Positions 4,424-33,525 of a DNA stretch of 33,525 bases are shown here, one piece after another. Origin of the DNA: an uncultured Spartobacteria bacterium (GTDB taxonomy: Bacteria > Verrucomicrobiota > Verrucomicrobiia > Chthoniobacterales > Chthoniobacteraceae); NCBI GenBank assembly GCA_903916085.1, contig CAIWVL010000046.1:1-33525 (forward strand), read 5' to 3'. Numbering within the stretch: the first letter of the stretch is position 1; every line of letters begins with the position of its first letter. A program made the position numbers and the translations under genes. The notes below the pieces were generated by a model. That model saw only the letters and a program-made list of their open reading frames with translations. It was not told the DNA's origin and made no database searches.

Positions 4424-6121
4424 TTAGAGGGTCCCAAGCATCTCCCCCCAATTGATCGGCTCCGCTAAAAGCGCAGGCTCATCAAACTCGCTCCGCTGGA
4501 ATTTTTCTAACGCCTCAGCCACGTCCTCCCATGGCTGCAACTCAAAGCTCACCCGGTCCCCCGGACGCAGCCCCGCCGCACTCGTGAGCACCTGCTCCTT
4601 CATACTCCACGTCAAAACGAGGCACTCCTGCCCCGAGCCCACGCCCTCCGCCTGCACATCCACAAGGTGAACACACACAATGTGTTCTCGATACGGAACA
4701 CTCCCCGGACGAGGCACCGACGAAAGGCGAGATACGATGCCAGTCACCCTTTGACGTGAGCCGGTGGCTATCCCATAAAAACTCGCTGGCGGAGACTCCC
4801 CCGTTTGCATCGACAGCTGCTTCCAGTCTCCAAACGCCAACTCCCGGGCGGCCAGCTCCCAAACGACCACGCGTTTCCTGCGTAACCGGTCGTGACCCGA
4901 AGCCAATTCGCGTTGCAGAAGCTGGCGGGTGGCAAACGCGCCGTCACTGTTACGGACGATCGCGTCCACTGACCGACCAAGCTTGACGCTCAGCTGCTCG
5001 GCAAACCCAGCACCCTCGCCCCAGCCCATCGCACCCATAGAAAAGATGTTCGAGAAACTGTCTCCCAATAAGAGAACATCCGAGTCTGGCGAAGGCTTCC
5101 AGAGTGCATTTTCTTGAGTCACCGGTTGGATTTCTACGGCCTCAGGCGTGAAAAGCGCCTGGTCCTGGGGCAAACCCAACAACCCAAGGGTATCGCCCAA
5201 GCCCGAAACCACCACGGGACGGTTACGCTCCAAACCACGCGTCGGGGGGGCCGACAGCGGCTCAATGGCACGCGCCACCGCGCCGGCAACCGCCTCCATA
5301 GCAGTAGGGGTCCAGTGCGTGTCAGTGGCCAGATACTGCGGTTCACCCGTTGTTTTGAGGCGCTCCAAAAGTACGTCGGTGGCGTCGTAAACCGTCACGC
5401 CCTGTTCCCGGAGGCGGGACACCCAGTCTTCAAAAGAGACATTGTGCCGCGCTCGAACCACATCGGTGCCAGTCAGCCGGTGCCCTTCAATACACGGCTT
5501 CACCGGGACAGGCACAACCACAAGCCGAATGCTTCTTGCGGCTAGTTGCCGTTGAAAATCCACAATACACCCGAGCGAATCTGGGTTGATGTGCTCCTTT
5601 GACTGCCGCGCCTTCTGCACATTCTCCTTCAAAAAGGGCGCGCCATTCACGTAATCCACGTCTTTACGAAAAAAAAGCCACCCACCAGCGGCAGGCAACA
5701 CTTGCTGATTACCCGTGCCTAAAAAGTGCGTCAAAAACGCCTGCACTCTCGGACGCAATGCGCTCATAAGCTGGGAGTGATCCTCCAGCCCCTTCTCAAC
5801 ATCACGCGTCGCGCTTGGGGACGGAAGCAACGCCCAAATTGCGGCAGGTGTGCGCGCCTGAACAAGCAACTCGGCCCTAGGTAACAACCGAGCGAACGCA
5901 GCACCCACAGAAACGTGATCCGAGGTATGAGGGGCTTTTATAAAGAGCGCCGTAGCAAAACCAGCACCCAGCATCAGCAGAAAGCCAACACACAAAACGA
6001 CTCGCGCTCCCCGCGAAAACCGAGTTCCTGTCAAATCGCGCTGCGCCTCCTGCTCACGGGGAGCCAAAGGAGAGTGGAGCGCAGGCGTCTGCTCTGGAGA
6101 AACTGGCGGGGCGCTGTGCAT
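4424..6121 (-). CDS. AlgJ/AlgX-like SGNH-fold O-acetyltransferase accessory protein with C-terminal extension
   Basis: GGWLFFRKDVDYVNG...RLVVVPVPVKP...LATDTHWTPTAMEAVA...VLLLGDSFSNIFS...VVWELAARELAFG; AlgJ/AlgX motifs (DTHW, GDSF). ATG at 6121 lies adjacent to the upstream MBOAT stop. About 130 aa extra at the C-terminus. Confidence 0.8.
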   Translation of the reverse strand: MHSAPPVSPEQTPALHSPLAPREQEAQRDLTGTRFSRGARVVLCVGFLLMLGAGFATALFIKAPHTSDHVSVGAAFARLLPRAELLVQARTPAAIWALLPSPSATRDVEKGLEDHSQLMSALRPRVQAFLTHFLGTGNQQVLPAAGGWLFFRKDVDYVNGAPFLKENVQKARQSKEHINPDSLGCIVDFQRQLAARSIRLVVVPVPVKPCIEGHRLTGTDVVRARHNVSFEDWVSRLREQGVTVYDATDVLLERLKTTGEPQYLATDTHWTPTAMEAVAGAVARAIEPLSAPPTRGLERNRPVVVSGLGDTLGLLGLPQDQALFTPEAVEIQPVTQENALWKPSPDSDVLLLGDSFSNIFSMGAMGWGEGAGFAEQLSVKLGRSVDAIVRNSDGAFATRQLLQRELASGHDRLRRKRVVVWELAARELAFGDWKQLSMQTGESPPASFYGIATGSRQRVTGIVSRLSSVPRPGSVPYREHIVCVHLVDVQAEGVGSGQECLVLTWSMKEQVLTSAAGLRPGDRVSFELQPWEDVAEALEKFQRSEFDEPALLAEPINWGEMLGTL

Positions 6122-13535: not shown

Positions 13536-13551
13536 TGTTCCACGTGGAACA
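13536..13551. promoter_or_regulatory. parS: parS-type palindrome, site 1 (intergenic yebC/mnmG)
   Basis: TGTTCCACGTGGAACA, perfect 16-bp palindrome; extends to a 20-bp palindrome GTTGTTCCACGTGGAACAAC (13534-13553). Confidence 0.85.
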
Positions 13552-13560
13552 ACGCCAAGC

Positions 13561-15456
13561 CTACGCCACGTCCCCGGTGGGTTCTGGCTCATGCCACGCC
13601 GCCCGAGGCTTGTCCAACAACAACCCCAACAACGCCAAATCCGATGGCGTCACGCCGCTGATCCTACCCGCCTGTCCCAACGTTGCAGGACGGAACTTCT
13701 CGAGTTTCTGCCGGGCCTCAATCCGTAAACCTCGCACCCGCGCGTAATCCAAATCCGGCGGCAACGCCCGCCCGTCCTGGGAACGCAACTTCTCAACCGC
13801 CATGTGCTGGCGGCTAATGTACCCCGCGTAGCGCAAATCAATCTCCACCGCATCCCAAGCTTCCGCTGGGAAGGGACGCCGGATTTCCTCCGGCAACTCG
13901 CGCCAATCCGTCTCTGGACGTCTCAACCACTGCGCCACACGCCCCTCGCCATGCCGCGTTTGCTCCGCATAAGTCACAAGTTCGGCGAGCTGACGACGGC
14001 GCGCTTCCGCCCGGTCCGCGCGCTCGGTATCCACCAAACCCGCCTCCCGGGCCAGGGGAGTCAGCCGCAAATCGGCGTTATCGTGACGCAAAAGCAACCG
14101 GTGCTCGGCACGGCTGGTGAACATCCGGTACGGCTCCTCGGTACCGCGGAGCACGAGGTCATCCACCAGAACGCCCAGATAAGCATCCGCCCGGCTCAGA
14201 ATCAGAGGCATTTTTCCGAGCACCTTCAGGGCAGCATTGGCACCGGCTAGAAGTCCTTGGCCAGCGGCTTCCTCGTAGCCAGAGGTTCCATTGATTTGAC
14301 CCGCGAAATACAACCCGGGTAGGCGCCGCGTTTCGAGGGTAGAATGGAGCTGCGTCGGCGGGCAGTAATCGTATTCGACAGCGTACCCAGGCCGGAGAAT
14401 CACGGCGTTTTCAAGACCCGGCACAGTGTGCAGAAAGGCGTATTGAACCTCCAGCGGGAGCGAGGTTGAGATGCCATTGACGTAGAATTCCTCAGTATGA
14501 CGACCTTCGGGTTCGAGGAACAGCTGATGCCGATCCTTCTCCGCAAAGCGCACCACCTTGTCTTCGATGGACGGACAATAGCGCGGCCCCACGCCTTCAA
14601 TGTGCCCGGCGTAGAGGGGAGATTGATGAAGGTTATCGCGGATAATCCCGTGGGTCGCGGGGTTAGTGTAGGTGCTCCAGCAGGGCATTTGTTCCACGTG
14701 GAACACACCCGCACACCACCGGTTCAGGGTGAAAATGTCGTTTCCTCCACCCCCAATCCGCTCCGGCAAGCTCGAAAACGGGACCGGAATTTCATCGCCG
14801 CCCTGGACCTCGCACTTTGAAAAATCAATGCTCCGGCCGTTCAACCGGCAAGGCGTCCCCGTCTTAAAACGACCCACCTCAAACCCCAATTCCCGCAGAC
14901 TGTCGCTCAAGGTGGAAACACTATCGCCAAGCCTTCCACCCGCCGCGTTCTGAAGCCCGATATGCAGCAACCCCCGCATGAAAGTTCCCGTCGTCACCAC
15001 CACCGAACGCCCCAAAATCCTTAGCCCCAAACTCGTCTCCACACCACACGCCCCATCGTCATCCCGCAGAATCCGCACCGCGTTGCCCTGACAAAGCGTC
15101 AAGCCAGACGTGCGCTCCAACTCCGCCTTGGCCCGAAACTGGTACGCCTTCTTGTCGCACTGCGCGCGGGGAGACCGAACGCTCGGACCTTTCCGAGCAT
15201 TTAGCATCCGGAACTGGATTCCCGTGGCGTCGGTATTCAATCCCATGAGGCCGCCCAGAGCGTCAATCTCACGCACGATCTGACCCTTGGCCTGACCGCC
15301 GATTGCTGGATTGCAAGACATCTGCCCGACGGAGTCCAGGTTTTGAGTCAGCAATAGCGCCGAGCACCCGAGACGCGCAGCGGCCAGGGCGGCCTCGATT
15401 CCGGCGTGTCCGGCGCCGAGGACGATCACATCGTAGCGGGTGGGGAGAGTGTACAT
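13561..15456 (-). CDS. mnmG: tRNA uridine-5-carboxymethylaminomethyl modification enzyme MnmG/GidA
   Basis: [62 protein letters not shown]...[29 protein letters not shown]...[25 protein letters not shown]. Start at ATG 15456 ([10 protein letters not shown]). Confidence 0.97.
14690..14705. promoter_or_regulatory. parS: parS-type palindrome, site 2 (inside mnmG coding sequence)
   Basis: TGTTCCACGTGGAACA, perfect 16-bp palindrome, translated as part of MnmG (..[12 protein letters not shown]..). Confidence 0.85.
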
Positions 15457-15555: not shown

Positions 15556-15571
15556 TGTTCCACGTGGAACA
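15556..15571. promoter_or_regulatory. parS: parS-type palindrome, site 3 (upstream of mnmG)
   Basis: TGTTCCACGTGGAACA, perfect 16-bp palindrome. Confidence 0.85.
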
Positions 15572-16858: not shown

Positions 16859-16874
16859 TGTTCCACGTGGAACA
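16859..16874. promoter_or_regulatory. parS: parS-type palindrome, site 4 (between cysteine desulfurase and CPBP protease genes)
   Basis: TGTTCCACGTGGAACA, perfect 16-bp palindrome. Confidence 0.85.
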
Positions 16875-31421: not shown

Positions 31422-32156
31422 ATGAACCCTCTTGAGCAACGCATTCAATACAAGTTCAGGAATCCGCTTCTCCTAGCCGAGGCCCTGACTCATCCCAGCC
31501 TCGGCTACGAGACTCAGCGTCATCACTTTGACAACCAGCGTCTTGAGTTCCTTGGAGACGCTGTGTTGCAACTTATTTTCACCGAATTCCTATTCGACTC
31601 GTATCCTGAACTGCCAGAAGGTGAGTTAACTAAGCTCAGAGCGCGTTTAGTTTCACGCGATGGGTTACGCGTCAACGCAGAGGCCCTCGACCTTGGCAAG
31701 TATCTGATGATGGGACGTGGCGAAGAGGCCACAGGTGGTCGGGGCCGCGCCTCAGCACTCGCAGACGCCTATGAGGCCATGATCGGTGCCCTCTACCTGG
31801 ATTCCGACTACGTCACCGTAAGGCGGATCGTCCTTACCGAAACGCGCGAACGCCTCGAAGAACTCGTTGTTGAAGATCCAACTGCCAATCCCAAAGGCCG
31901 TTTGCAGGAAATTCTTCAAGCCATCACTCCGCAGAGTCCTTCCTATGAGGTCGTCGAACAATTCGGCCCTGAACACATGAAACAATTTGTCACTCGGATC
32001 CTGTGGGAAGGTCGGGAACTCGCGCGCGGCAATGGACGCAGCAAAAAGGACGCCGAAGTCCAAGCGGCTCGAAAAGCCATTGAACTACGCGCGTGGGAGG
32101 CCTCCACTTTGCCCCAACCCAACGCATCTTCTCCCACGAACAACTTTGCCGAATAG
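31422..32156 (+). CDS. rnc: Ribonuclease III
   Basis: NQRLEFLGDAVLQLIFTEFLFDSYPELPEGELTKLRARLVSRDGL...ALADAYEAMIGALYLD plus a C-terminal dsRBD-like region (NPKGRLQEILQA...GNGRSKKDAEVQAARKAIE). Confidence 0.96.
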   Translation: MNPLEQRIQYKFRNPLLLAEALTHPSLGYETQRHHFDNQRLEFLGDAVLQLIFTEFLFDSYPELPEGELTKLRARLVSRDGLRVNAEALDLGKYLMMGRGEEATGGRGRASALADAYEAMIGALYLDSDYVTVRRIVLTETRERLEELVVEDPTANPKGRLQEILQAITPQSPSYEVVEQFGPEHMKQFVTRILWEGRELARGNGRSKKDAEVQAARKAIELRAWEASTLPQPNASSPTNNFAE

Positions 32157-32157
32157 C

Positions 32158-32370
32158 TGTGAACAACTTCCCACAAGTGCGAGCAACTTTGAACCATCCA
32201 CAAACTCCACGTCTTTGTTCACAGCCATTCGCCAGTTGTACACAGGCATTTTTACTACATAAATCCCTGCTCAAACGGTGGTTATTGGTGCCTTAGAGCG
32301 CTTATTCACACACTGAAGAAGAAGAAGAATGGCCTCGTTTTTTCTATATCTCTTCAGAAGCTGTGTACAA
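32158..32370. promoter_or_regulatory. DnaA-box-like cluster (candidate oriC or DnaA-controlled region)
   Basis: Five TTRTNCACA matches: TGTGAACAA 32158-32166 (-), TTGTTCACA 32215-32223 (+), TTGTACACA 32236-32244 (+), TTATTCACA 32302-32310 (+), TGTGTACAA 32362-32370 (-). Weaker sites TTCCCACAA (32168) and CCATCCACA (32194). Confidence 0.6.
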
Positions 32371-32483
32371 CTTCCACATCTCCTGCCTCGCTCCACTTCG
32401 GAACCTTACCTGCCATACTGTTGGAATGGGGCAGCGATCATCTCTTAAATCATGCCGAACATTTGCTTGGTTTGCGGTGCTAG

Positions 32484-32632
32484 TTAGAGCGCCTAAAAAA
32501 GAGAGCTCACGCGGAGATGCGGAGAACGCGGAGCTTTTATAAAACCTTATTTCGAAGGTTATTCCGTAATTTCTCCGCGCTCTCTGCGCCTCCGCGTGAG
32601 CCCTCTTTTTTGGGTTAATTTAGGCGTTCTAA
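32484..32632. repeat. Long imperfect palindromic intergenic element
   Basis: Left arm TTAGAGCGCCTAAAAAAGAGAGCTCACGCGGAGATGCGGAGAACGCGGAG (32484-32533) pairs with right arm CTCCGCGCTCTCTGCGCCTCCGCGTGAGCCCTCTTTTTTGGGTTAATTTAGGCGTTCTAA (32573-32632). Inner hairpin AACCTT-ATTTCG-AAGGTT at 32543-32560. Confidence 0.8.
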
Positions 32633-32638
32633 GTAGTG

Positions 32639-32807: not shown

Positions 32808-33525
32808 ATGAGCGCCTCCGACTCCCTGATCTACTTAGATAATAATGCCACCACTCAGGTGGATCCTGCCGTCTTGGAGGAAATGTTACCCTTCCTCTCT
32901 CAGCACTACGGAAATCCATCCAGTCCGTACAAACTGGGCAAAACCACCGCCCAAGCTTTGGAATTGGCCAGAGAACGCGTCGCAGCCCTGCTTCAGTGTG
33001 AAGCTCAGGAGGTCATCTTCACCAGTTGCGGTACAGAATCGACCAATGCCGCCATTCATTCTGCTTTAGCCGCAGATCCTGACCGCCAACACATCGTGAC
33101 CACCCGTGTCGAGCACTCCGCCACGCTGAAGACTTGTGAACTCCTAGCCAAACGTGGCCACGAAATCACCTGGATCGGTGTGGATTCCAAAGGACAGGTC
33201 AATCTTGAGGACATTGAAAAAGCCGTGCGTTCAGACACCGCTCTCTTGAGTGTCATGTGGGCTAATAACGAAACAGGAACGATCTTTCCCATCAGTGAGC
33301 TCCAGCAAATCGCTCACCGGAAAGGCGTCTACTTTCATACCGATGCCGTCCAGGCTGTCGGTAAAATCCCGATCCTCTTAAAGGACGCCGGTATTCAATT
33401 CGTTTCTGTTTCCGGTCACAAATTACACTGTCCCAAGGGAGTAGGCGTTTTATATGCAAACCGCCGGACCCGTTTTAATCCGTTCATGACGGGTGGAAGC
33501 CAGGAAAACGGCAAACGCGGCGGGA
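32808..33525 (+). CDS. Cysteine desulfurase (NifS/IscS family), truncated by window end
   Basis: ATG at 32808: MSASDSLIYLDNNATTQVDPAVLEEMLPFLSQHYGNPSSPYKLG...FTSCGTESTNAAIHSAL...WANNETGTIFP...HTDAVQAVGKIPI...VSGHKLHCPKGVGVLY. Not in the ORF track because it is open at the 3' end. Confidence 0.92.
   Translation, partial: MSASDSLIYLDNNATTQVDPAVLEEMLPFLSQHYGNPSSPYKLGKTTAQALELARERVAALLQCEAQEVIFTSCGTESTNAAIHSALAADPDRQHIVTTRVEHSATLKTCELLAKRGHEITWIGVDSKGQVNLEDIEKAVRSDTALLSVMWANNETGTIFPISELQQIAHRKGVYFHTDAVQAVGKIPILLKDAGIQFVSVSGHKLHCPKGVGVLYANRRTRFNPFMTGGSQENGKRGG

Follow-up and report, generated by a model that had tools for sequence, protein, structure and literature searches.

Sequence evidence for a probable chromosomal replication origin beside rnc and away from dnaA in a member of the Chthoniobacterales

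In Escherichia coli, oriC lies apart from dnaA and its AT-rich unwinding element stands beside a DnaA box directed at it; the element is one-sided, carries T-rich 13-mers and has neighbour genes different from those of the site described here. The DnaA-trio consensus of Bacillus subtilis is 3'-GAT-5', the middle adenine of which contacts Asn187 through its amino group, and a cytosine in the middle position, which also bears an amino group, works better with B. subtilis DnaA than G or T (PMC10721633). A box, a short spacer, a triplet tract and AT-rich DNA follow one another in oriC2 of Helicobacter pylori (PMC8235120). The origin of Methylacidiphilum infernorum lies 250 nt upstream of dnaA (PMC2474590) and that of M. 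fumariolicum ~6.6 kb from dnaA (PMC4210602). For the Chthoniobacterales, our literature search found no published origin, DoriC entries aside. Origins distant from dnaA often remain unlocated, and metagenome-based estimates of replication rate depend on where the origin lies.

We analysed a stretch of 33,525 nucleotides (hereafter the window; contig CAIWVL010000046.1) from an uncultured Spartobacteria bacterium of this order, in which a preliminary description had proposed an origin next to rnc. The named relatives comprise MAGs of Chthoniobacteraceae/Spartobacteria as well as Chthoniobacter flavus Ellin428. Judging from the sequence comparisons reported below, the box cluster on the rnc side (32157-32372) is very probably the chromosomal oriC of this bacterium, located away from dnaA. 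Cluster uniqueness, conservation with fixed spacing, a skew switch in the genus and parS proximity were computed and support the proposal; the weak duplex, the triplet register and the conservation of DnaA residues were computed as well.

The box cluster and its intergenic region

A pattern scan of the window identified five exact TTRTNCACA sites within 213 bp (32158-32370), just after the rnc gene for ribonuclease III (31422-32156, plus strand), which is the constant left neighbour of the putative origin in the family. These were the same five sites that had been claimed before for about 215 bp. The first box (TTGTTCACA, 32158-32166, minus strand) starts 2 bases past the rnc stop codon and was found at the same place in several same-genus relatives, while the second (TTGTTCACA, 32215-32223, plus strand), 87 bp before the core box and 21 bp from the next one, is an extra box of the window's genus. 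They are followed by box 1 (TTGTACACA, 32236-32244, plus strand), which precedes the core box by 66 bp and has its counterpart at -65 in other genera and other families, by box 2 (TTATTCACA, 32302-32310, plus strand), which is the core box and is directed into the predicted unwinding region, and by the inverted box 3 (TTGTACACA, 32362-32370, minus strand), which closes the core.

The whole window contained 8 TTRTNCACA matches versus 0.99 expected from dinucleotide shuffles, and the 3.7 Mb draft genome (379 contigs) contained 140, compared with 77 for a control pattern. When both half-patterns were listed completely, no second locus with at least three sites inside 1 kb was found in the draft genome. 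At the genome density, ~2e-8 five-site clusters in 213 bp were expected. When the 651-bp gap between rnc and nifS was simulated 20,000 times with a Markov model, no simulation exceeded 2 sites. The density scan proposed in the preliminary description could have shown an unexceptional site; instead, the cluster proved exceptional genome-wide.

The gap had also been described as unusually long and AT-richer. Its AT-richness was borne out (G+C was 48.5% in the gap and 46.3% in 32157-32480, versus a comparison value of 57.4%), and so was its length, although this is partly due to a ~150-bp repeat occupying 32484-32634. The repeat has inverted-repeat ends and ~40 further copies in the genome with 83-96% identity, and looks like a MITE or similar element inserted beside the origin. 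In relatives, the downstream gene starts ~250-300 bp past rnc. The right neighbour in the window, a nifS/iscS-like cysteine desulfurase gene (32808-33525, plus strand), occupies this place in the window's genus only and is cut by the contig end, ~1.2 kb beyond the box cluster. The 3' part of nifS is absent from the assembly and the window could not be joined in that way to its right-hand continuation; the next recognisable right-hand piece is contig C198, which starts in recJ.

Conservation and anatomy of the core

The boxes form a frame that recurs in the family at ~50 (plus strand), ~115 (plus strand) and ~176 bp (minus strand) after the rnc stop codon, some of the positions being occupied by weaker matches. 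The number of exact boxes differed among same-genus genomes, and two genomes (G100 and G116) had no box matching the strict pattern and near matches at the same positions. The 78-bp core was modelled from sequence alone (A1/R1, with R1 built from 23 rows), and 197 genomes of the order were searched with the model. The window's copy (32301-32372, plus strand) was matched with an E value of 7e-15 in its genome and was one of the 23 rows used for building R1. The best R1 match lay beside rnc in nearly every genome of the family, including genera outside the training set (g4, g8 and g9). In G128, the match was on contig C2 and rnc on C54. Most genomes of the order had one locus each, which in other families was situated at places away from rnc (E values of 1.8e-13 in G113, 2.6e-11 in G009 and 5e-10 in G042). 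Owing to the partly palindromic nature of the core, matches were often obtained on both strands. Beyond the order they were few and weak (12 genomes at E<=0.01, the best being 3.6e-6 in G290), so that single R1 E values of 1e-4 to 0.1 are untrustworthy one by one.

Two loci showed peculiarities. In one genome (L015 / G092:C39:111607-112964) the origin core was repeated, with boxes every ~375 bp in both orientations and six model matches, representing either an amplification or an assembly artefact. In the draft of Chthoniobacter flavus Ellin428 (L163), boxes at 5830 and 5895 fit the frame of the family; its rnc frame (5001-5769) met a stop at 5210 and the similarity ran on beyond it, which may reflect either a sequencing error or a true interruption.

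The DNA between the facing boxes 2 and 3 (32311-32361; 39% G+C) is a candidate unwinding element. According to the computed duplex stability, the weakest 25-bp windows lay between these two boxes in 10 members of the genus and in 15 other members of the family, which places a low-stability stretch directly next to the boxes. Three bases after the box at 32302 there is a (GAA) tract resembling DnaA-trios (32314-32328, plus strand), which on the box strand reads TGA AGA AGA AGA AGA, that is, five W-K-A triplets, and on the opposite strand 3'-ACT TCT TCT TCT TCT-5'. In the family rows, the middle base of the triplet was G or T in 92/92 cases (C or A on the opposite strand), and 40/40 triplets from ten genomes of five other families fitted W-K-A (middle G in 25, T in 15); in a mixed set, the middle-base register was kept in 104/104 triplets. 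Because a model favouring GA-rich triplets had retrieved these ten genomes, the strictness of their triplets was partly selected, although the alternation between G and T and between A and T within triplets was free and not a product of model selection. The strand putatively held by DnaA would read 3'-W-M-T-5', with C or A in the middle. No W-K-A register was detected on the box-3 side and, since the register exists on the box-2 side only, an arrangement of two head-to-head modules of the basal unwinding system (BUS) was rejected.

The strict BUS rule, by which a box must have three or more 3'-NAN-5' trios no further than 16 bp away (PMC8287927), does not describe the conserved box at 32302, where the middle base is C. 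A strict run of three trios is present in the window after the box at 32236, and the TTTTTACTACATAAAT stretch located there is not conserved even within the genus. A relaxed rule allowing any middle base with an amino group (A or C) in constant register (PMC10721633) describes all 92/92 and 40/40 triplets. Both (GAA)5 and TTTTTACTACATAAAT had been suggested as unwinding elements; the former gained from the strong conservation of its place and triplet register, and the latter found no such support. The conserved tract is thus not a BUS by the strict middle-A rule, yet it appears to work like one, and the triplets are likely to act as mostly cytosine-centred DnaA-trios. The opening motif would be one kept across the order and differing by one base type from the textbook trio.

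The arrangement in most of the other genera and families had box 1 at -65, two G[T/C/A]GGAAC motifs at -43 and -21 and box 2 at 0, followed by 3 bases, the triplets, weak DNA and the inverted box at +59 to +62. The two motifs stand 21-22 bp apart, in phase with the DnaA boxes, and the GTGGAAC form corresponds to a parS half-site; they may represent either weak DnaA sites or ParB half-sites. They were not found in the window's genus, which has the extra box at -87.

GC skew, parS sites and the dnaA locus

The plus strand of the window was C-rich almost throughout, regardless of gene strand, as expected to the left of an origin. An earlier caution concerning this C-richness was right, and the window by itself cannot reveal a skew switch. 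In the window's genome no switch was visible, as the contig stops within nifS; C198 was flat (-0.008 over 6.9 kb), compared with -0.094 to the left of the site. In the same-genus contigs, the best change point estimated by maximum likelihood fell between -2.3 kb and +0.6 kb from the 3' end of rnc in 8/8 cases, with block-permutation p values of 0.003-0.06 (n=8). In seven of the eight, negative skew gave way to positive values or values of about zero, and the right side was often only weakly positive or near zero (whole-stretch values to the left and right were -0.118/+0.078 in G112 and -0.073/+0.018 in G100); in the eighth contig (G144) the skew rose from ~0 to +0.2 near rnc. At the change the cumulative skew reached a minimum, and parS was nearby, indicating an origin and not a terminus. 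In same-genus relatives the minimum was therefore at the cluster, and the distant minimum that had been named as an argument against an origin was not seen there.

Outside the genus, the skew was uninformative in most genera, being too weak or irregular in the rest of the family to mark a switch. It was near zero in G092 and G078, weakly consistent in G139 and flat in G002, and it disagreed in other genomes, changing elsewhere in G083 and G023 and being negative to the left and right of the module in G084. The cumulative minimum of G042 was 3.4 kb from the module, and the skew sampled along its chromosome was negative before the module and mostly positive after it.

Perfect parS sites (TGTTCCACGTGGAACA) were found in the window at 13536-13551, 14690-14705, 15556-15571 and 16859-16874. 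All four lay at or within the coding regions of mnmG and the first nifS/iscS. Their distance to the cluster was 15-19 kb, in agreement with the ~15 kb previously indicated, and 15-35 kb in those relatives of the same genus whose examined stretch carried parS on the alaS side. In G144, the order alaS-rnc-module-nifS-recJ was kept, and mnmG and parS were on the right of the site. In other families, parS sites were 0.2 and 1.5 kb (G042), 6-7 kb (G084), 9-10 kb (G002), 0.2-1.0 kb (G057) and 0.2 kb (G073) from the module, and the sole parS-like site in the 360 kb sampled from G019 was 2.6 kb from a weak module match; no parS was present on the 11.8-kb module contig of G009. With this short contig excepted, parS sites were proximal to the proposed origin wherever the flank examined was long enough.

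The dnaA and dnaN genes of the window's genome were located together on a separate contig (C325), whose skew was uniform (+0.09 to +0.18 over 15.5 kb), implying that there is no origin switch at dnaA. Only one exact DnaA box was found upstream of this gene. In G100, the skew of the dnaA region was mostly negative on both sides. Adjacency to dnaA, a common and not a defining feature of oriC, was not observed, and the notion of an origin without dnaA and dnaN beside it held. When the DnaA of the window organism was aligned with 8btg, the residues that hold the trio (E183, N187, I190, I193, N196, R202 and E228 in B. subtilis numbering) were identical. Two single-contig genomes of the order of 0.9 Mb (G007 and G017) had neither a DnaA domain match nor a match to the origin core; these reduced genomes seem to have lost dnaA and the core together.

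Alternative readings and comparison with described origins

DnaA doubles as a transcription factor, and nifS comes directly after the cluster in the window's genus, as it would after a DnaA-controlled promoter or operator of nifS/iscS that is no origin at all. However, the right neighbour differs in other genera (argG, rhaB-like, pilT, uvrC on the opposite strand, S4-like and pfkB-like genes, named by sequence recognition) and was switched at least six times in the family while boxes and spacing persisted, which argues strongly against a regulatory site for one downstream gene. Moreover, the skew of the genus switches at the site, and the modules of other families are near different genes but near parS, leaving the operator scarcely credible. 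Clusters of boxes distant from dnaA are also known as DnaA-titrating or reactivating sites of the datA or DARS type, which would regulate an origin located elsewhere. Such clusters are expected away from the origin, whereas this one coincides with the skew switch of the genus and holds phased triplets in a putative unwinding region between facing boxes; besides, the genome offers no other cluster to act as oriC, and there is a single exact box upstream of dnaA. We consider a datA- or DARS-like role very improbable.

The two remaining alternatives accept the site as oriC and concern the way in which it opens. Extrusion of a cruciform by the inverted repeat between the facing boxes would be compatible with the folding of two loci, L107 (z -4.1 versus shuffles) and L114 (z -2.6), but z was -1.4 in the window and ~-1.5 in other genera; being weak outside a few species, the cruciform was rejected as the driver of opening and its involvement seems very doubtful. 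Alternatively, the GAA triplets could be just a purine-rich structural tract and DnaA could be loaded at TTTTTACTACATAAAT after the box at 32236, where TTGTACACA GGCA TTT TTA CTA has a GGCA spacer and then three strict trios with A in the middle, as the search rule demands (PMC8287927). That stretch is unconserved in the genus and the register of the GAA tract is kept across the order, in the weakest duplex, which makes loading at TTTTTACTACATAAAT unlikely.

Under the preferred reading, that is, an oriC opened at the triplet tract, DnaA would bind the row of boxes directed at the core (32215, 32236 and 32302), and from the box at 32302 a DnaA filament would extend onto one strand of the tract at 32314-32328. 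The triplets would serve like DnaA-trios whose middle base is cytosine and sometimes adenine. The filament would then open the weak stretch at 32311-32361, bounded on the far side by the inverted box at 32362, helicases would load and forks would depart both ways, the left one through rnc, alaS, recG and recA and then beyond the parS sites at 13.5-16.9 kb, and the right one through nifS. DnaA binding, unwinding at 32311-32361, helicase loading and actual initiation are the steps that we infer from the computed features. More broadly, and with moderate confidence, we propose that the Chthoniobacterales share a single origin core that relocates as a unit within the chromosome, independently of dnaA, and opens via natural cytosine-middle trios, the counterpart of the substitution tolerated by B. 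subtilis DnaA, with upstream boxes and G[T/C/A]GGAAC motifs 21-22 bp apart. The core would provide a searchable origin for an order widespread in fresh water and soil, as well as natural sequences for the question raised by the BUS structure, namely whether DnaA is able to use trios with a central base that is not adenine (PMC10721633), and the rule of A or C only in the middle position makes the cytosine-trio reading directly testable.

The site resembles oriC/BUS of B. subtilis (boxes 6/7, GC-rich spacer and trios) in having a box of the same orientation, a short spacer and triplets leading into AT-rich DNA, as well as identical trio-contact residues in DnaA. It differs in that oriC of B. 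subtilis is located at dnaA and has A-centred trios, whereas the window site is distant from dnaA, reads 3'-W-M-T-5' with mostly C and has an inverted box on the far side. With Methylacidiphilum it shares the phylum, Verrucomicrobiota, and an origin located by skew, but the dnaA of the window's genome is on a different contig without a skew switch. Like the E. coli oriC, it is separate from dnaA and has a candidate AT-rich unwinding element by an inward box. The order of box, spacer, triplets and AT-rich DNA is that of H. pylori oriC2, which, unlike the window site, is one half of a two-part origin and has T as the middle base on the box strand and A on the trio strand.
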